This document shows, in pieces, positions 16,272-24,481 of a stretch of 32,395 nucleotides of DNA; position 1 is the first letter of the stretch; every line of letters starts with the position of its first letter. A model generated the notes under the pieces. That model ran no database searches, was not told where the DNA came from, and saw only the letters and a program-made list of their open reading frames with translations. The position numbers were made by a program, and so were the translations under genes. Source of the DNA: Deltaproteobacteria bacterium (GTDB lineage Bacteria; Desulfobacterota; Syntrophia; Syntrophales; UBA5619); contig JAPLJY010000110.1 in assembly GCA_026388345.1 (NCBI GenBank), positions 1 through 32,395 of the forward strand, written 5' to 3'.

Positions 16272-17039
16272 ATGGCAAAACGATTTCTTCTGACCAACGA
16301 CGACGGGATCTATGCACGGGGCCTCCTGGCCCTCTATCGGGAGCTCTCCCGGGACGCGGAGTGTCTCATCGTGGCGCCCGAGGTCGAGCAGAGCGCGGTC
16401 GGCCACGCGATCACGATCTCCCGGCCGCTGATGGTCCGGAAGGCCCGGAAGAACGGGGGATTCCTCGGCTATGCCGTTCTCGGTACGCCGGCCGACTGCG
16501 TCAAGATCGGCCTGGGCGAGCTGGCAGGGGGGCCGGTGGACCTGGTTGTCTCCGGGATCAACCGCGGGGCGAACGTGGGGATCAATGTCCTCTATTCGGG
16601 GACCGTCTCCGCGGCGACGGAGGCGGCGATCCTGGGGGTGCCGTCGCTCGCGATTTCGCTCGATACGCATGAGGAGGCGGACTATACGGCGGCCGCCCGT
16701 TTTGCCCGGAAGATGGCCGCCTTCATCCTCGAAAATCCACTGCCGAACGTCGCGCTGAACGTGAACGTCCCGGCGGTTCCGGAAGGGGAGATCCGGGGCG
16801 TCGTCGTGACAAAACAGGGTCGGGCGCGCCTGATGGAGAGCTTCGACAAGAGGATCGATCCGCGCGACAACACCTACTACTGGCTGGCCGGCGAGACGGA
16901 GCTCCCCTCGCAGGAGCAGGACGATACGGACGCCAGCGCCCTGAAGCGGGGGATGATCACCATCACCCCGATTTATTATGACCTCACCCGCTACGACCTG
17001 CTGGAAGGCCTGAGAGCCCGCATTAAAAAACACTTCTGA
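16272..17039 (+). CDS. surE: 5'/3'-nucleotidase SurE
   Basis: 255 residues, normal for SurE. The N-terminal FLLTNDDGIYARGL carries the metal-binding Asp pair (Asp10, Asp11), with VEQSAVGHAIT and SGINRGANVGINVLYSGTVS completing the divalent-metal active site. It removes phosphate from nucleoside monophosphates, is important in stationary phase and stress in other bacteria, and is cytoplasmic. GAGGAGGAG upstream is a strong ribosome binding site. Both neighbours are on the same strand but well separated (127 and 125 bases), so it may be transcribed alone. Confidence 0.95.
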   Translation: MAKRFLLTNDDGIYARGLLALYRELSRDAECLIVAPEVEQSAVGHAITISRPLMVRKARKNGGFLGYAVLGTPADCVKIGLGELAGGPVDLVVSGINRGANVGINVLYSGTVSAATEAAILGVPSLAISLDTHEEADYTAAARFARKMAAFILENPLPNVALNVNVPAVPEGEIRGVVVTKQGRARLMESFDKRIDPRDNTYYWLAGETELPSQEQDDTDASALKRGMITITPIYYDLTRYDLLEGLRARIKKHF

Positions 17040-17069: not shown

Positions 17070-17098
17070 TTGACAGCACCCCTTTCTATCATTATATT
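17070..17098 (+). promoter_or_regulatory. Promoter of the hgcC-like/arsM cluster
   Basis: TTGACA (17070-17075), 17 bases, TATATT (17093-17098): the same near-consensus hexamers as the dnaK operon promoter. Predicted start about 17105, within or just before the palindrome at 17109-17127. Confidence 0.78.
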
Positions 17099-17164: not shown

Positions 17165-17449
17165 ATGGAGAATACCGATTCAAAGGCGTCCTGCTGCGAG
17201 GGCGGGAGCGCGGGCATGAGCTGCTGCCGTGTCGAGGCGCTGCTCGGCGTCGATGAGCGGGGACAGATGGTGCTTCCCAAGGAATTGAGGGACAGGGCGA
17301 ACATCAAGGCGGGGGACAAGCTGGCGGTTGTCAGTTGGGAGAAGGACGGAGAGATCTGCTGCCTTTCCCTGATCAAGGCCGACAACCTCGCCGAGCGGGT
17401 GAGGGAGTTTCTCGGTCCGGTCATGCGGGAGGGGGGCTCCGGTTCATAG
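17165..17449 (+). CDS. AbrB/MazE-fold protein resembling HgcC (HgcAB-associated)
   Basis: 94 residues from the ATG at 17165, preceded by GGAGG. The N-terminus is cysteine-rich (SKASCCEGG, MSCCRVEALL), followed by a SpoVT/AbrB swapped-hairpin domain (GVDERGQMVLPKELRDRANI, then KAGDKLAVVSWEKDGEICCL) and a helical tail. Proteins of this pattern are annotated as HgcAB-associated HgcC and occur beside hgcAB mercury-methylation genes or beside arsM. Here it lies 78 bases before arsM under a shared promoter. The Cys pairs could bind a thiophilic metal or metalloid, making it a candidate sensor for the palindrome upstream; this is inference. hgcA and hgcB are not in the window. Confidence 0.75.
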   Translation: MENTDSKASCCEGGSAGMSCCRVEALLGVDERGQMVLPKELRDRANIKAGDKLAVVSWEKDGEICCLSLIKADNLAERVREFLGPVMREGGSGS

Positions 17450-17527: not shown

Positions 17528-18373
17528 ATGGAACAGGGAGAAATCAGAAAGGCCGTCCGGGACGGCTACGGAAAGATCGCGAAGAATTCAGGAAGTTGCT
17601 GCCTTCCCGGGGCATCTTGCGGCTGCGGCGGCACTTCGGTGGAAACGATCAGCCAAGGGGTGGGTTACACCCCGGAGGAGATGCAGACCGTTCCGGAGGG
17701 TGCGAACCTCGGCCTGGGATGCGGTAATCCGGTGGCGCTGGCGTCCCTGAAGGAGGGCGAAACAGTGGTCGATCTGGGGTCCGGCGCCGGTTTTGATGCC
17801 TTTCTCGCTGCCCGGGCTGTGGGGAAAAGCGGGCGGGTGATCGGCGTGGACATGACGCCGGAGATGATCGACAAGGCACGGGGGAACGCCCGGAAGGGTG
17901 ACTATGAAAACGTGTCGTTCCGTCTGGGGGAGATTGAGAATCTTCCGGTCGCCGACCGTACCGCCGATGTCATTATCTCGAATTGCGTGATCAACCTCTC
18001 CCCCGACAAGGAGCGGGTCTTCCGGGAGGCCTTCCGGGTTCTCAAACCGGGCGGCCGGTTGATGGTCTCCGATATCGTCCTGCTGAACCGGCTGTCCCCT
18101 GCGCTGAAAGAATCCATCGAGGCCTATGTCGGCTGTGTTGCCGGCGCGGTGATGAAAGAGGATTATCTCCGGGCGATCCGGGAGGCCGGTTTCGAGGATA
18201 TTCAGATCGTCGGCGAAACCACCTTCCCCGTCAGTGATCTTCTCGATAATCCCGCAGTACGGGAGCGCTTCGCCCAGGCGGATCACCTGGAGGCGCAGGT
18301 TGAGGAAATCAGTTCATCCATCGCCAGCATCAAGGTTCAGGCTGTAAAGCCGGTGATGAACAAAGGGCATTGA
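17528..18373 (+). CDS. arsM: Arsenite S-adenosylmethionine methyltransferase
   Basis: 281 residues from the ATG at 17528, with GGAGG spaced 9 bases upstream. It transfers methyl groups from S-adenosylmethionine to As(III), giving methylated, partly volatile arsenicals. The Rossmann motif is VVDLGSGAGFDAFLAARAVG, with MTPEMIDKARGNARK after it. The three cysteines that bind arsenic in this family are present: Cys65 (GLGCGNP), Cys153 (SNCVINLSPDKERVFREAFR) and Cys203 (YVGCVAGAV). An extra Cys-rich N-terminus (SGSCCLPGASCGCGG) is typical of anaerobe-type ArsM. It sits between the HgcC-like gene and the selenoprotein candidate, forming a probable three-gene metalloid unit. Confidence 0.95.
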   Translation: MEQGEIRKAVRDGYGKIAKNSGSCCLPGASCGCGGTSVETISQGVGYTPEEMQTVPEGANLGLGCGNPVALASLKEGETVVDLGSGAGFDAFLAARAVGKSGRVIGVDMTPEMIDKARGNARKGDYENVSFRLGEIENLPVADRTADVIISNCVINLSPDKERVFREAFRVLKPGGRLMVSDIVLLNRLSPALKESIEAYVGCVAGAVMKEDYLRAIREAGFEDIQIVGETTFPVSDLLDNPAVRERFAQADHLEAQVEEISSSIASIKVQAVKPVMNKGH

Positions 18374-18494: not shown

Positions 18495-18740
18495 ATGGCG
18501 AAAAAAATCATCATCTACGGGACGGAGACCTGACCCTTCGCGAAACAGGCCAGGTCGGCCTACGGGGAGCGGGCGGTCTTTTTCAATGTCGATGAAAACC
18601 CGGAGAAACGGCAGGAGATGCTCGCCCTGACCGGGGGAAGGGAGCAGGTGCCCGTGATCGTGGAAGACGGGAAGGTCACGATCGGTTTCCTGGGGGAGTT
18701 CTCCCTGCGCGGCGCCGTTCCTCTGTTCGGCGGCACCTGA
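18495..18740 (+). CDS. Glutaredoxin-like selenoprotein candidate (Sec at in-frame TGA 18531-18533)
   Basis: Reading TGA at 18531-18533 as selenocysteine gives an 81-residue thioredoxin-fold protein: start MAKKIIIYGTETUPFAKQAR, the cis-proline motif QVPVIVEDGKVTIGFLGEFS, and the end GAVPLFGGT before TGA 18738-18740. The Sec occupies the first Cys of the glutaredoxin CPYC site (here U-P-F-A, a monoselenol). GAGG lies 9 bases before the ATG. A SECIS-like hairpin with loop AGGTC lies 18 bases after the TGA. Small Sec/Cys glutaredoxin-like proteins beside arsM genes are known in deltaproteobacteria (NCBI labels such as UXX-star). A role in reducing arsenicals or handling metalloids with ArsM is plausible. 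The alternative, a pseudogene with a nonsense codon, is less likely because the rest of the frame is intact and conserved-looking. Confidence 0.82.
18531..18560 (+). promoter_or_regulatory. UGA codon plus bacterial SECIS-like element
   Basis: The TGA is followed by 14 bases, then GGCC (18548-18551), loop AGGTC (18552-18556), GGCC (18557-18560). Bacterial SECIS elements recognised by SelB have a short stem with a GG(U) in the loop about 16-20 bases after the UGA; the loop here starts 18 bases after it. The lower stem is weak. Confidence 0.65.
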
Positions 18741-18750
18741 CCCGTCTGAC

Positions 18751-18767
18751 GCCTCCCGGCGGGAGGC
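18751..18767 (+). terminator. Hairpin after the selenoprotein gene
   Basis: GCCTCCC, GGC, GGGAGGC: a perfect 7-bp stem beginning 11 bases past the stop. The downstream sequence has only an interrupted T-run (GGGTCTTTT at 18775-18783), so termination is likely but not textbook. Confidence 0.5.
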
Positions 18768-19032: not shown

Positions 19033-21396
19033 ATGAACGACCCATCCGGGACAAATACCGAAATGATCGAAGAGATATCCGTCTTAAAGCAGAGAATCCG
19101 GGAACTGGAGCAGTCGGAAGCAGAGCGCAAACAGGCGGAGGAGGAGCTGCGGAAGCGCGAGGCGCGGTACCGCACCCTTTTTGAGCAGGCGGCGGTGGGC
19201 GTGGCTGAGATCGAAATCATCACGGGCCGTTTCCTCACGGTCAACCGGCGGCTTTGCGAACTCGTCGGCAGGACGGAGGAGGAACTGCTTGCCACCACCT
19301 ACTTGGCGATTACGCATCCGGATGATCTTCAGTTGCATGAGGACAAATCGGCGCTGCTGCTGGCCGGAAAAATCGGACACTACACCTTGGAGAAGAGATA
19401 CATCTCTAAGGACGGGGCAATCATCTGGGTGAATATCACGGTATCGCATCCCTGGAAGCCGGGGGAAAAATCCGGGTGTAACATCGTTGTGGTTGAGGAC
19501 ATCACCGAACGCAGGCGGGCGGAGGATGCACTGCAGGAGAAGACGGAGGAACTTGACAGGTACTTTTCGACGGCTCTGGACCTGTTCTGCATCGCCGACA
19601 CCGACGGTTGCTTCCGGCACCTGAACCGGCAGTGGGAAGTGACTCTGGGTTACTCTCTGGTGGAACTGGAGGGGCGGCGTTTTCTTGATTTTGTGCACCC
19701 GGACGACATGGAATCAACCCTACAGGCAATCTCGCGGCTTGACAGCCAGGAGCAGGTCCTGAACTTCGTCAATCGCTATCGCTGCAAGGACGGTTCTTAC
19801 CGCTGGATCGAGTGGCGTTCCTCTCCAAGAGGCAAGCTCATTTATGCCGCCGCTCGCGATATCACCGAGCGCAAGCGAGCGGAGGAGGAACTGCGGGAAA
19901 GCGAGGAGCGGTTTCGTGCCTTGAGTGAGAACGCGCCGGATATTATCTACACCGTGAATCTTGACGGAACCATCACTTATGTGAATCCATCCTGGATGCG
20001 GGTTTTAGGGCATGGCGAAGAAGACTTGCTGGGGCGTTATTTCACGGATTTTGCGAGGGAAGAGGATAGGAGAGCCTATAGAAAACTACTCAAAGGCGTT
20101 CGGGACGATCGGAAAAACGTTCATAATTACATTGGGGTTATGCTGGCCAAGGACGGAACGGAACGGGTGTTCAACATGAACAGCGCCTTCAACCGGGACT
20201 CGAAAGGCCACATCATCGGCGTCGTGGGTACCATGAAGGACATCACGGAACTGAGAGATATGGAAAAGAAGCTCAATCATGCCCAGAAGATGGAGGCCGT
20301 CGGCACGTTGGCCGGCGGCATTGCCCACGACTTCAACAACCTGCTCATGGGGATTCAGGGGTATACGTCCCTGACGTTGCTGGATCTGGATCCCTCTCAT
20401 CCGCATTATGAGCGGCTCAAGCGGATTGAGGAGCAGGTGCAGAGCGGGGCGGATTTAACCAGGCAACTGTTGGGTTTTGCCAGTGGGGGAAGATATGAGG
20501 TGAAGCCCGCCGATATGAACGACATCCTTAAAAAGAGCTCCTCGATGTTCGGCAGAACCAAAAAGGAGATCACCATCCATCGGAAATACGGGAAAGACCT
20601 CTCGGCGGTGGAGGTGGACCGGGGACAGATGGAGCAGGTGTTCATGAATCTGTATGTGAATGCCTGGCAGGCGATGCCCGGGGGCGGGGAGATCTATCTG
20701 GAGACGGAAAATGTTCTTCTGGATGATGAACAGGCGTTTTCCTATGCCATCAGTCCGGGGAGATATGTGAAGATATCGGTCACCGATACCGGTACGGGGA
20801 TGGACGATAAGACCAGGGAGCGGATCTTTGATCCCTTCTTCACGACGAAGGGGATGGGAAGGGGGACGGGCCTGGGATTGGCGACGGTCTACGGGATAAT
20901 CAAGGGTCACAAGGGGGCGATCAACGTGGACAGCGAGCCCGGTCACGGGACGACGTTCAATATCTATCTGCCCGCTTCGGAGAGGGAGGTGGTGAAGGAA
21001 AAGACGGAGACCGGGGCCGTCGCCAGGGGGACAGAGACGATCCTGCTGGTGGATGATGAAAAGATGGTCCTGGAGGTGAGCCGGGAGATGTTGGAGTCCA
21101 TGGGGTACCGGGTCTATGCGGCCGGGAGCGGTCCGGAGGCGCTCGCCGTTTACCTGGAAAAGCGGAAGGAGATCGACCTGGTGATTCTGGACATGATCAT
21201 GCCGGGGATATCGGGAGGAGAGACCTTCGATCGTCTCCGGGAGATCAATTCCGCGATCAAGGTTCTTCTTTCCAGCGGTTACAGCATCAACGGCGAGGCG
21301 AGCCATATCCTGGACCGCGGCTGCAACGGGTTCCTCCAGAAGCCCTTCCATCTCGAGAAACTTTCCGACAAGGTCAGGGAGATGCTGGAAAAGTAG
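19033..21396 (+). CDS. Soluble hybrid histidine kinase: three PAS domains, HisKA, HATPase and receiver
   Basis: 787 residues, no membrane segment or signal peptide, so it is a cytoplasmic sensor. An initial coiled coil (about 8-42) leads to PAS1 (about 45-160), PAS2 (about 175-285) and PAS3 (about 300-410), each ending with a DITE motif and linked by short helices. HisKA carries the phospho-accepting His432 in [18 protein letters not shown]. The HATPase domain has [17 protein letters not shown] (N box), [16 protein letters not shown] and [13 protein letters not shown]. The C-terminal receiver (about 668-785) has DD acid residues in LLVDDEK, phospho-Asp720 in ILDMIMPG, and the Lys in FLQKPF. 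No separate response regulator is adjacent, so output is by phosphorelay. Its last 23 bases overlap the end of the convergent restriction gene. The signal sensed is unknown. Confidence 0.94.
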
Positions 21397-24300
21397 GAAG
21401 AATCTCCCCCGTGGCGGCAATTTTTTCTTCCACGAGACGGATCTCAGCCTCCGTAAGATCGTAGAGGTCGTAGACCAGCCGGTCGATCTGCCGGTCGGCG
21501 GCGTCGATCTGGCGCTTGAGGTTCGTGTGTTCGTGGTCCGTCCGGGCGGCGGCCAGCCTCCGGTGGAGGGCGAGCATCTCCTCGACCAGGGCGACCATCC
21601 GGTCGTGCCGCTCCCGGTCCGCCGTGTCGGCGAAGTCGATGCGGCGGATGGGCGTCTGAGCAACGAAGACGGCGGAGAAATTGAAGCTGTGGCCCTGGAG
21701 GTCCGTGCAGACGCTATGAATAAACAGGCGCAGCAGCGACGAGTTCAGAAGGCCGAGGAGATACATCGACCCCTCCGGGACAAGAAAGACCTTGTTGTTG
21801 GCATAGGTTCCCGCATTGTCCCAGGTGAAGCGGGCGCTGCCGGCAATCTCCGGCCAGAGAATCTTCGGTTTCTCAAATTCGGTGTAATAATCGACGGCAT
21901 CCTGAATCTCGTACCACAGATAGGCGCCCGGTTTTCTTCCTTTCCAGTCGGCGCCCTTCCAATCCTTCGGCTTCGGCAGCAGTTGTTCCTTGAACCGTTT
22001 CAGGTGACTTTCAACGGCCGGATAGCGTTTGATATCGACGCCGCGCCGTGTGAAGATGAAAAAGTGATCGCTCGTCGGCGGTTCGTATCTCTTGATGTCC
22101 CGCCCCGCGAGAAATGGTTTGATCAGCTCCGAGCTTTTGGGGTCTTCGGCGATGAGGCGCTCCCGCATCGCCGCGTCGATGACGAATGCCTCGTTGAAGC
22201 CGGTTTTAATGCCATAATAGATCTGGCCGTTCACATATTCTTTCAAGGGGACGCCCGTTTGGCGGAGCTTTTTCAGCAGGGCAGCGGTCCCCTCATCGCT
22301 CAGGGACCAGCCGCCGTCTTCGAGAGACTCCCGCCGGACCTCGTAGCGATGTCCCCGCACATAGGCCGCGAGGCTGTCGAATTGGAGGGTGTCGGCCTTC
22401 ACCACGCCGAAGGTATCGGAGGGTTTTCCTTTCCGAATCCGGATGATGCAGGGATAGGTCGTCGCTCCCGTAAAAACCGGCAGATCTCCGAAATCGACGA
22501 TCTCCTCGATCCCCTGACCCTTTAGCCAGTTGCGCAGGGGCCGACCGTAGCCGGCGCGCAGCCACTTGTTGGCCACGATATAGGAAAAATAACCGTCCGG
22601 CCGCAGCAGGGCGACACCTTTTTCGATGAAATAGGCGTACAGGTCGGCGACTCCGTCATAGACCCGATAGTGTTTTTGAAAATAGGCCTTGAAATCCCCC
22701 AGCATCTCCTGGCGGACATACGGCGGGTTGCCGATCACGGCATCGAAGCCGCCTGCCCGGTCCGGCGACGCAGCTTCCCGCCCGCCGTGCGTCTCGGACG
22801 GCAGGCGTCCGTTCTCAACGGCGAAAACCTCCGGGAACTCCTTTTCCCAGTCGAAGCAATTGATCCGGTACTGATCCTCGTCGCCCAGGAGGTTGAGCTG
22901 CGCACCGTCGTAGAATCCCGTACCGATCAGGGAGTTGCCGCAGCGGATATTCCCGGAGAGGTCGGGGAGGGCGCGCTCCTGAAAGAGCCTGATCTGGTTC
23001 GAGAGGGTCTCCCCGCTCTCCCCCTCCAGGACCTTGAGGAGGAGCGAGAGCTTTGTCACCTCGACGGCCTGGGGGTCGATGTCCGCGCCGTAGATGCTGT
23101 TGAGCAGAATCCGCTTGCGTTCCGCCGTGGTCAGCCGCCACTCGCCGCCGGCGGCCTGATAGAGGACCGGCCGCCGCCCCTTCGTCCGCTTCTCCGGTCC
23201 GCCCGCCACATAGCGGTCCCGGTACCCGTCGAGGAGGCGCTGATAGGCCTGGATGAGGAAGGAGCCGGAACCGCAGGCGGGATCGAGGATCCGGAGCCGG
23301 TCGGCCTGGGCGGGGGTCCGGCCTTCGAGGAGGCGGCCGACCGTTTCCTCGACGATATAATCGACGATGTATTTCGGGGTGTAGAAGACGCCGCCCGCCT
23401 TCTTCACCTCGGGCTTGTCCTCCACCTTCGCCTGGTGGCCGGCGGTGAGGCGGATGATCTTGCCGAGGAACTGTTCGTAGACCCGGCCGAGAATGTCGGC
23501 GGGGAGAACAGAGAATTCATACGGGGAATCAGGGTAGTATAGCCCCCGGAAGATCTCTTTGAGCGCCTTGTCGTCGATGGCGAGGTCCAGCGTGAGCCGA
23601 TCCGGAGACGCCGCGCGGCCCTTCTCCTGCCGGAAGTGAAACAGGCCGGAGTTGTACCGGTCGTCGGCCCGGTAGAAGATCCCGATGAGACGTTTATAAA
23701 CGCCGGGGCCGTTCTGGAGACCCTGGAGCTGGCCGTAGGGCTCGATCCCCCGGTCCTCGCAGATCCGAAGAAAGATGATCCGGTTGATCGTGAGCGTCAC
23801 CGCCGTGTTCAGCTCCCGCTGGCTCAGGGCAGGGTTCCGCAGCGCGATGGTCCGGGCGAGGAGATCCCGCCAGGATTCGATTTCCCGGAGGAAGGCCTCG
23901 TCCACGCCGGCGGTGCCCCTCTTCAGGCGGGTCGATTCGGCGTAGCGGTCGAAGGCCCCCCGGAGGATCGCCTCCCGGGCGAAGACGGCGGCGATCTCCT
24001 CCCAGCGGGCGGCGTAATCCCGGAAGCTGAAGAACAGAATCCGGGCCGTCGCGGGCCGGTCGTTCTGGTCCGGCTTGATCCGGCAGTCGTAAACGGCAAA
24101 TTCCTCGAAGTTCGTGAGGATGGAAAGGGGCAGCCCGGCGGACCAGGCGTAGCGGCGGAGCTGGTAGGCGGGGGCGGCGTCCTCGGCGATGCGGATGGCG
24201 GGCTTTTTCGCCTCCACGAAGAACTTCCGCGTCCCGCCGATGCGGAAGCAATAGTCCGGGGCCTTCACCGCGCCGCCGATCCGGATCGCGTCCTCGTGGA

Positions 24301-24481
24301 TCACGTCCTTGTAGGCCTCGGCGTGGCCGGCGATATTGTCCAGATCCCAGCCCAGCGCGCCGAAGAGAGGATCGATGAACTCCCGCCGGAGTTGTGTTTC
24401 GTTGTAGGCGCCGGAGGCGTAGGCCGCGAGGTTTTCCGTGAAACGCGCGACAAGATCGAGAACTTCCTGGGGAGCAGGCAT
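21374..24481 (-). CDS. Single-chain (type IIG-like) restriction-modification enzyme
   Basis: 1035 residues combining nuclease, methyltransferase and DNA-recognition parts, as in Eco57I/BpuSI-type enzymes. The N-terminal PD-(D/E)XK nuclease site is visible as PDYCFRIGGTRKFFVEAKK (Asp76, Glu90, Lys92). The adenine-N6 methyltransferase has FYTPKYIVDYIV, motif I DPACGSGSFL (400-409), a motif II acidic residue in YGADIDPQAVEV, and motif IV NPPY (585-588). The C-terminal 350 residues form the TaqI-type specificity region (GRDIKRY; WYEIQDAVDYY), ending in a coiled coil. It cuts unmodified foreign DNA and protects host sites. All motifs are intact, so it is probably active. No separate methylase or specificity subunit is next to it. 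Its 3' end overlaps the kinase gene by 23 bases. Confidence 0.93.
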   Translation of the reverse strand: MPAPQEVLDLVARFTENLAAYASGAYNETQLRREFIDPLFGALGWDLDNIAGHAEAYKDVIHEDAIRIGGAVKAPDYCFRIGGTRKFFVEAKKPAIRIAEDAAPAYQLRRYAWSAGLPLSILTNFEEFAVYDCRIKPDQNDRPATARILFFSFRDYAARWEEIAAVFAREAILRGAFDRYAESTRLKRGTAGVDEAFLREIESWRDLLARTIALRNPALSQRELNTAVTLTINRIIFLRICEDRGIEPYGQLQGLQNGPGVYKRLIGIFYRADDRYNSGLFHFRQEKGRAASPDRLTLDLAIDDKALKEIFRGLYYPDSPYEFSVLPADILGRVYEQFLGKIIRLTAGHQAKVEDKPEVKKAGGVFYTPKYIVDYIVEETVGRLLEGRTPAQADRLRILDPACGSGSFLIQAYQRLLDGYRDRYVAGGPEKRTKGRRPVLYQAAGGEWRLTTAERKRILLNSIYGADIDPQAVEVTKLSLLLKVLEGESGETLSNQIRLFQERALPDLSGNIRCGNSLIGTGFYDGAQLNLLGDEDQYRINCFDWEKEFPEVFAVENGRLPSETHGGREAASPDRAGGFDAVIGNPPYVRQEMLGDFKAYFQKHYRVYDGVADLYAYFIEKGVALLRPDGYFSYIVANKWLRAGYGRPLRNWLKGQGIEEIVDFGDLPVFTGATTYPCIIRIRKGKPSDTFGVVKADTLQFDSLAAYVRGHRYEVRRESLEDGGWSLSDEGTAALLKKLRQTGVPLKEYVNGQIYYGIKTGFNEAFVIDAAMRERLIAEDPKSSELIKPFLAGRDIKRYEPPTSDHFFIFTRRGVDIKRYPAVESHLKRFKEQLLPKPKDWKGADWKGRKPGAYLWYEIQDAVDYYTEFEKPKILWPEIAGSARFTWDNAGTYANNKVFLVPEGSMYLLGLLNSSLLRLFIHSVCTDLQGHSFNFSAVFVAQTPIRRIDFADTADRERHDRMVALVEEMLALHRRLAAARTDHEHTNLKRQIDAADRQIDRLVYDLYDLTEAEIRLVEEKIAATGEILPTFPASP

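Follow-up and report, generated by a model that had tools for sequence, protein, structure and literature searches.

The open reading frame that starts with the ATG at position 18495 of the window (the whole stretch of DNA analysed here, 32,395 nt in length) raises two questions, namely whether the TGA in its 13th codon (18531-18533) is read as selenocysteine (Sec) and, if so, what role such a small selenoprotein could have next to an arsenite methyltransferase gene. The original prediction had placed this codon at the redox position of a glutaredoxin-like protein of 81 residues and had suggested that the product is a partner of ArsM. The frame past the codon, described there as intact, is indeed open up to the TGA at 18738-18740, and dN and dS values of 0.055 and 0.195 in comparison to the closest relative (L001) point to purifying selection acting on the codons past TGA13. 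Not every TGA can encode an amino acid in this organism, as both arsM (TGA 18371-18373) and surE (TGA 17037-17039) terminate in this codon. From the comparison with related sequences it appears most likely that the gene ends at 18749 and that its product contains Sec at the positions 13 and 82 (Table 1).

Table 1. Predicted features in and around the UXX-star gene of the window.
Feature	Position	Strand	Basis
Sigma-70-like promoter match, TTGACA-17-TATATT, ahead of the hgcC-arsM-UXX-star set	17070..17098	+	consensus scan only; 2 in the region, 0.5 expected
HgcC-family AbrB-type protein, CC motifs, upstream of arsM	17165..17449	+	NF040962, 125.7 bits vs 70 (scanned from the longer start 17144)
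arsM, arsenite methyltransferase, 281 aa, Cys-type, no in-frame TGA	17528..18373	+	NF008823/PRK11873, 358 bits vs 263
UXX-star family 1 double selenoprotein (predicted), 84 residues (U13, U82), no Cys, stop TGA 18747-18749	18495..18749	+	frame, profile score
Sec codon 1 (TGA, by comparison), UPFA motif, glutaredoxin active-site position	18531..18533	+	TGA in 61, Cys in 17 of 78 scored sequences
SECIS 1 (candidate): apical stem 18547-18551/18557-18561, loop AGGUC 18552-18556, 18 nt past UGA	18534..18572	+	comparison; single-sequence z -1.4
Probable Sec codon 2 (TGA), which opens the U-X-X-stop tail (UPV-stop) at the C terminus	18738..18740	+	comparison
Probable SECIS 2: stem 18751-18757/18761-18767, loop GGC 18758-18760, 17 nt past UGA, beyond the stop codon	18741..18776	+	single-sequence z -1.6

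The gene had been treated as an unknown one. However, with its full 84 residues the product reached 83.9 bits against NF041114, 'UXX-star selenoprotein family 1' (81.9 bits for the frame to 18740; cut-off 72), and 69.0 bits against the wider model NF041212 (68.7 bits for the frame to 18740; cut-off 66), and two of its relatives (P0040 and P0043) carry the NCBI label 'UXX-star (seleno)protein family 1'. The window gene adds a member to an established family to which no function has been assigned. With U read as C, the product also scored 38.6 bits with the Pfam Glutaredoxin model (cut-off 22.9) and 32.2 bits with glutaredoxin 3 (TIGR02181), the latter being below the curated cut-off of 90. An AlphaFold2 model based on 73 sequences, across which the active-site column (Sec/Cys, TGA read as Cys) was invariant, exhibited a mean pLDDT of 80.5, with the stretch 68-74 under 50; a Foldseek search yielded two matches under E 0.001, both of them glutaredoxins with a TM of 0.62. 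A glutaredoxin fold is predicted on this basis. Fold and motif position are shared with bacterial glutaredoxins such as glutaredoxin 3 and cGrx1 (7c10/7c12), of which cGrx1 presumably originates from a natural selenoprotein; unlike these, the window product does not contain the second active-site Cys and bears a C-terminal Sec tail.

The NF041114 model comprises 70 positions, the last of which aligns to the final residue of the U-x-V tails. According to our own reading of this alignment, the name 'UXX-star' would denote a C-terminal Sec, two residues and the stop. For family 1, the 2026 review PMC13188914 lists a UxxT motif and two Sec, which means that the second Sec was already known for this family. 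The window gene has UPFA instead of UxxT, which we take as a motif difference inside the family, with the curated score still being passed. In common with family 1 (also 'Distant Grx-like protein 1') it has the curated score, the glutaredoxin-like domain, a predicted Sec at the CxxC position and the C-terminal U-x-V-stop. Two canonical members, however, comprise only 68 and 71 residues, whereas the 84-residue window product contains extra residues before the C-terminal GGTU, and it differs further by the arsenic-gene neighbourhood described below, with arsM as the neighbour in the window.

For codon 13, a protein search returned 190 homologues. Among the best 120 of these and the query (121 proteins) a regular expression found CPFC in 98, CPYC in two, WPFC in three, GPFC in one and CPFA in one, the query itself. 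No motif was found in the other 16, of which 13 are too short, at 52-66 residues, to include the position and three are misses of the regular expression. The expected Cys-containing homologues hence exist (CPFC or CPYC in 100 of these 121 proteins). A scan of species genomes provided 80 loci, or 81 sequences together with the window, 78 of which could be scored at codon 13 (all but L062, L079 and L080). TGA was present in 61 of them and a Cys codon in 17 (11 TGC, six TGT); every scored sequence carries a Cys codon or a TGA at the aligned position, one of the two points on which the original prediction had staked its reading. Judged by their record titles, the loci stem from Syntrophales and other deltaproteobacterial bins, Spirochaetes, Acidobacteria, Planctomycetes and others. 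This comparison says that the TGA of codon 13 is read as Sec.

A SECIS element with the loop AGGTC had been proposed 18 nt past this TGA. The loop (18552-18556) does begin at that distance, on a stem of 5 bp. The bacterial SECIS model given in the legend to Fig. 2 of PMC13188914 (upper stem of 4-16 bp, loop of 3-9 nt with a G in the first two positions, spacing of 16-37 nt, MFE <= -7.5) finds a match there with 5 bp, AGGUC, 18 nt and -15.7. Taken as a single sequence the hairpin is unremarkable and ordinary for a GC-rich coding sequence: its z-score is -1.4 with 17 of 200 dinucleotide shuffles folding equally well, six extra bases change this to -0.2 and 76 of 200, and the observed energy is attained by 99 of 400 synonymous-codon shuffles of the window peptide, while a pentaloop at +18 arises in 62 of the 400. 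Across the sequences, however, the element appears clear, as a covarying hairpin at a fixed distance that marks the TGA members. A strict rule (stem of at least 4 bp, pentaloop exactly at +18, G in the first two loop positions) applied to 50 of 61 TGA members and to only two of 17 Cys members (Fisher 1.7e-7). The loop-closing pair between nt 18 and nt 24 past the codon is formed in all 60 distinct TGA sequences (CG 34, TA 22, TG 4) and in five of the 17 Cys sequences. The looser published limits include 45 of 61 TGA members, but also six of 17 Cys members. The strict rule excludes eleven TGA members: in L001 the loop AAGTC breaks the rule on the G, and in the ten others the 4-bp stem is missing. 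The SECIS proposal therefore stands by virtue of the family, while the structure in the window is weak in isolation.

The TGA at 18738-18740, which had been taken as the end of the product, is probably a second Sec codon that was missed; the tail of the gene reads TGA CCC GTC TGA at 18738-18749 (GGT-U-P-V-stop) and the product would have 84 instead of 81 residues. A C-terminal TGA was found by pattern in 76 of the 81 sequences. The pattern misses L030, L055 and L058, whose printed frames have a TGA followed by GV, as well as L062, which has Trp (TGG) at this site, and L078, the frame of which is broken; L050, which is counted among the 76, has a stop just ahead of the motif. Past the TGA, Val occupies position +2 in 74 of 76 sequences, encoded by all four GTN codons and thereby free in its third base, and a stop follows at +3 in 54. 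Both features are almost invariable in the canonical group (Val in 49 and stop in 48 of 49 sequences). The 27 sequences of the window's group all have C as the middle base of the +1 codon, and 25 of them have Val at +2; the stop is at +3 in six, the sequences without it continuing for some codons further. In 62 of 76 sequences the C-terminal TGA is followed by a hairpin of bSECIS type with an energy of -7.5 kcal/mol or better. The one of the window (7 bp, GGC, 17 nt, -16.9) fits the bSECIS model, with a z-score of -1.6 in the window sequence alone, and the DNA similarity between the window and its nearest relative (86.5%) extends to 18767, the last base of this second hairpin. Among the best 120 of the 190 database proteins, 116 end exactly before the C-terminal TGA codon, and three (P0081, P0105 and P0109) continue past it with a W at this codon, which would be expected if TGA had been taken as either stop or Trp.

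The C-terminal TGA is kept in all 17 members with Cys at position 13, and the genomes of all 17 contain SelB over the cut-off. The C-terminal Sec hence appears to be the constant element of the family, with site 1 alternating between Sec and Cys. Of the 74 members that could be scored at both sites, 72 have no Cys or Sec beyond site 1, site 2 and an optional CxxC partner. This second Cys of the UxxC/CxxC motif is retained in 23 of 27 sequences of the long branch to which the window belongs; Cys is wholly absent in L001 and in the window product, for which Sec13 and Sec82 are the only predicted chalcogen residues. From this distribution we infer that both sites work as a pair.

Insertion of Sec in the window's organism would depend on a machinery that can be seen in the genome of the nearest relative (G001), where SelB (372.8 bits; cut-off 242), tRNA-Sec (78.8; 47), SelA (619; 268) and SelD (381; 125) were all found; an absence of these genes, which the original prediction had named as a refutation, does not apply to this relative. 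Nine of 13 genomes with Sec at position 13 contain SelB over the cut-off, and none was found at E 1e-60 in the genomes of L002, L013, L032 and L064. These four are bins and may be incomplete, but the missing matches speak against the two-Sec reading. SelB does not discriminate carriers of the family within the class of G001, as it occurs in 141 of 155 genomes, that is in 63 of 67 with and 78 of 88 without the UXX-star family (p = 0.27). The SelD gene of G001 (L115, G001:C58) has one in-frame TGA and SelD is probably a selenoprotein itself.

Genes within 5 kb of each locus (less at contig ends) were searched by phmmer using one query each for ACR3, ArsR, ArsC, ArsM, HgcC, an ArsP_1-type permease and a DsbD_TM protein. 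Either the queries or their kin were identified as ACR3 (379.8 bits over 282.8), ArsR/SmtB (87.5 over 55), ArsP_1 and DsbD_TM; pI258-type ArsC was assigned at 137.3 bits, under its cut-off of 174.3. ACR3, ArsC or ArsM was found at 24 of the 26 best-matching loci (L001-L026, the branch), but at only one of the 54 others; the corresponding Fisher value of 5e-17 overstates the difference, as the loci are related. ACR3 itself was detected at 22 of the 26 branch loci, at varying distances and always on the same strand as the UXX-star gene, while at L012 and L018 the permease was the sole match within 5 kb. Outside the branch, L031 is the sole locus with ACR3 (plus ArsR), and L030 has a DsbD_TM protein. 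No ACR3 or ArsC was found within 5 kb of the window gene, whose sole arsenic neighbour is arsM. In a midpoint-rooted tree of few columns and 76 rows (61 of the 80 loci, with 19 left out, plus the window, 11 database proteins and three further loci), L001-L026 and the window are placed on one side of a 96/93 split, which L031 joins as the next neighbour (89/84, below the tool's star); the window and L001 are grouped at 100/99 and nested inside the branch. The arsenic link thus appears to be broader than ArsM, with the branch sitting in arsenic-detoxification clusters. Among the literature matches listed, no title or abstract start tied UXX-star proteins to ars clusters, although an earlier publication is possible.

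Direct adjacency to arsM was seen only in the window, in L001/G001, which shares the gene order from grpE/dnaK through surE, hgcC and arsM, and in G344, where a CPFA form with C-terminal TGA lies downstream of arsM and a small Cys-rich gene. The latter (L116 7210-7488, minus strand) encodes a Cys-/Met-rich protein of 93 residues between arsM and the UXX-star gene, for which neither Pfam nor NCBIfam gave a match at the applied cut-offs. Among the 155 genomes of the class of G001 the UXX-star family occurs in 67 (E 1e-12) and arsM in 40 (E 1e-50), in the sample of the phylum in 102 (E 1e-16) and 116 (E 1e-70) of 395. Pairs of both genes within 5 kb, counted by eye from the tables, exist in G001, G344, G108 (2.2 kb apart on opposite strands), G333 and G356 (both 4.3 kb, apparently the same cluster, with arsR and acr3). 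At L020 arsM lies on the opposite strand at a distance slightly below 5 kb, and in G283 at 6.5 kb in a cluster with ACR3, ArsC and arsM. The ArsM link therefore appears recurrent but rare, and the arsM setting looks like a derived placement of a gene that serves arsenic clusters elsewhere on the branch. Of the partnership originally proposed, the connection to arsenic is borne out by these neighbourhoods, whereas the specific one to ArsM stays a suggestion.

Selenium in the context of arsenic methylation is also represented by the ArsM/AhpD, ArsM/DUF2284 and MTase/UXPK-star selenoproteins (NF041537, NF041536 and NF047649), but there, according to their names, methyltransferase fusions bear the Sec. 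The window ArsM has no in-frame TGA and stays far below the cut-offs of these models (211.6 of 510 bits for NF041537, 196.7 of 575 for NF041536 and 199.7 of 460 for NF047649). MTH895/ArsE-type proteins (TIGR00412) are likewise small thioredoxin-like proteins of arsenic clusters, but form a separate family; the member at L117 shares its cluster with a UXX-star gene and has no in-frame TGA.

The reading that we prefer, at a probability of about 0.65, is a two-Sec protein of glutaredoxin fold with two SECIS elements, the selenol pair of which serves arsenic detoxification and, in the window, ArsM as its client. According to the comparison each UGA would be decoded through a SECIS hairpin of its own, the second of which would lie past the stop codon. 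The first helix would have Sec13 at its N terminus, and Sec82 would lie three codons ahead of the stop. The two selenols most likely act as a pair, either by forming a diselenide or by holding As(III) or methyl-As(III) between them, and would thereby give electrons to, or carry arsenic for, detoxification enzymes. In the lineage of the window this enzyme would be ArsM. A more specific version sees the branch as a dedicated arsenic redoxin, in which the constant C-terminal Sec pairs with residue 13 and the Cys-free, two-selenol form of the arsM lineage runs a diselenide or As(III) bis-selenolate cycle that feeds or re-reduces ArsM; this version is tentative and we regard it as somewhat doubtful.

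Several other explanations have to be weighed against this two-Sec reading. In one sequence an in-frame TGA is what gene decay would be expected to look like. A sequencing error or a decayed gene is nevertheless hardly conceivable and for the window gene is refuted by the comparison, given that 61 of 78 sequences, which by record title belong to several phyla, have TGA at the same codon and that dN is low relative to dS. That only UGA13 is decoded, with an ordinary stop at 18738 and a terminator in place of SECIS 2, would agree with the ends of the 116 database protein calls among the best 120 of 190 and with the insignificant second hairpin in the single sequence. Against it stand the conservation of x-Val-stop past the TGA with free third codon positions and a hairpin in 62 of 76 sequences; moreover, the stem lacks a directly following T-run, and no terminator was called at this place by the scan. 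We regard this explanation as very improbable.

The remaining alternatives accept both Sec residues and concern the function of the protein. It is unlikely, in our view, that it acts as an As(III) chaperone or buffer rather than as a reductant, with both selenols binding arsenic and handing it to ArsM or ACR3. The window product, with two chalcogens that are both Sec and no resolving residue at the CxxC position, would suit such a role, and PMC13188914 considers that Sec residues of UXX-star proteins may be metal-binding ligands. However, the second Cys retained in most long-branch sequences (23 of 27) fits redox turnover. Still less probable is a true double selenoprotein with a general redox role, for which the arsenic setting would reflect stress co-regulation or hitch-hiking and ArsM would not be a client. 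The rarity of arsM adjacency and the scarcity of ACR3/ArsR outside the branch (only L031 of 54 loci, with L030 having DsbD_TM) agree with this idea. Against it stand the 24 of 26 branch loci near ACR3, ArsC or ArsM at varying distances but with ACR3 always on the same strand, as well as the fact that the outside locus L031 branches right beside the arsenic clade (89/84).

In the available excerpt of PMC13188914 no established function is given for UXX-star selenoproteins. The arsenic connection of the branch, which is not visible from the window sequence alone as seen by the original prediction, offers a concrete substrate hypothesis for them and seems to be the most useful part of this analysis. 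The arsM-linked, Cys-free member would in addition be a clean object for studying the role of two selenocysteines in a small protein. Annotation of such genes loses both of their ends, namely the codons ahead of the first UGA and those past the second.

Some further observations concern the wider surroundings. Clusters of UXX-star, arsR-like, acr3, DsbD_TM and rhodanese-like genes were seen at L117 and L118 (G333 and G356) and at L120 (G283), those at L117 and L118 additionally holding an ArsE-type thioredoxin and arsM. The gene immediately ahead of arsM in the window belongs to the HgcAB-associated HgcC family, and HgcC and ArsM matches are co-located also in L001 and in G108 (L119). G001 exhibits a partial HgcA-like match with one TGA on another contig (165 bits, under the cut-off of 275), and no such match was found in G108 or G344. 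In the phylum sample, arsM matches with in-frame TGA codons occur in G225, G493, G511, G283 and others, and these are possible ArsM selenoproteins. On the minus strand of the window, positions 21374-24481 encode a protein of 1035 residues that had no NCBIfam match at 1e-40 and whose sequence, as we assume, resembles a restriction-modification enzyme.
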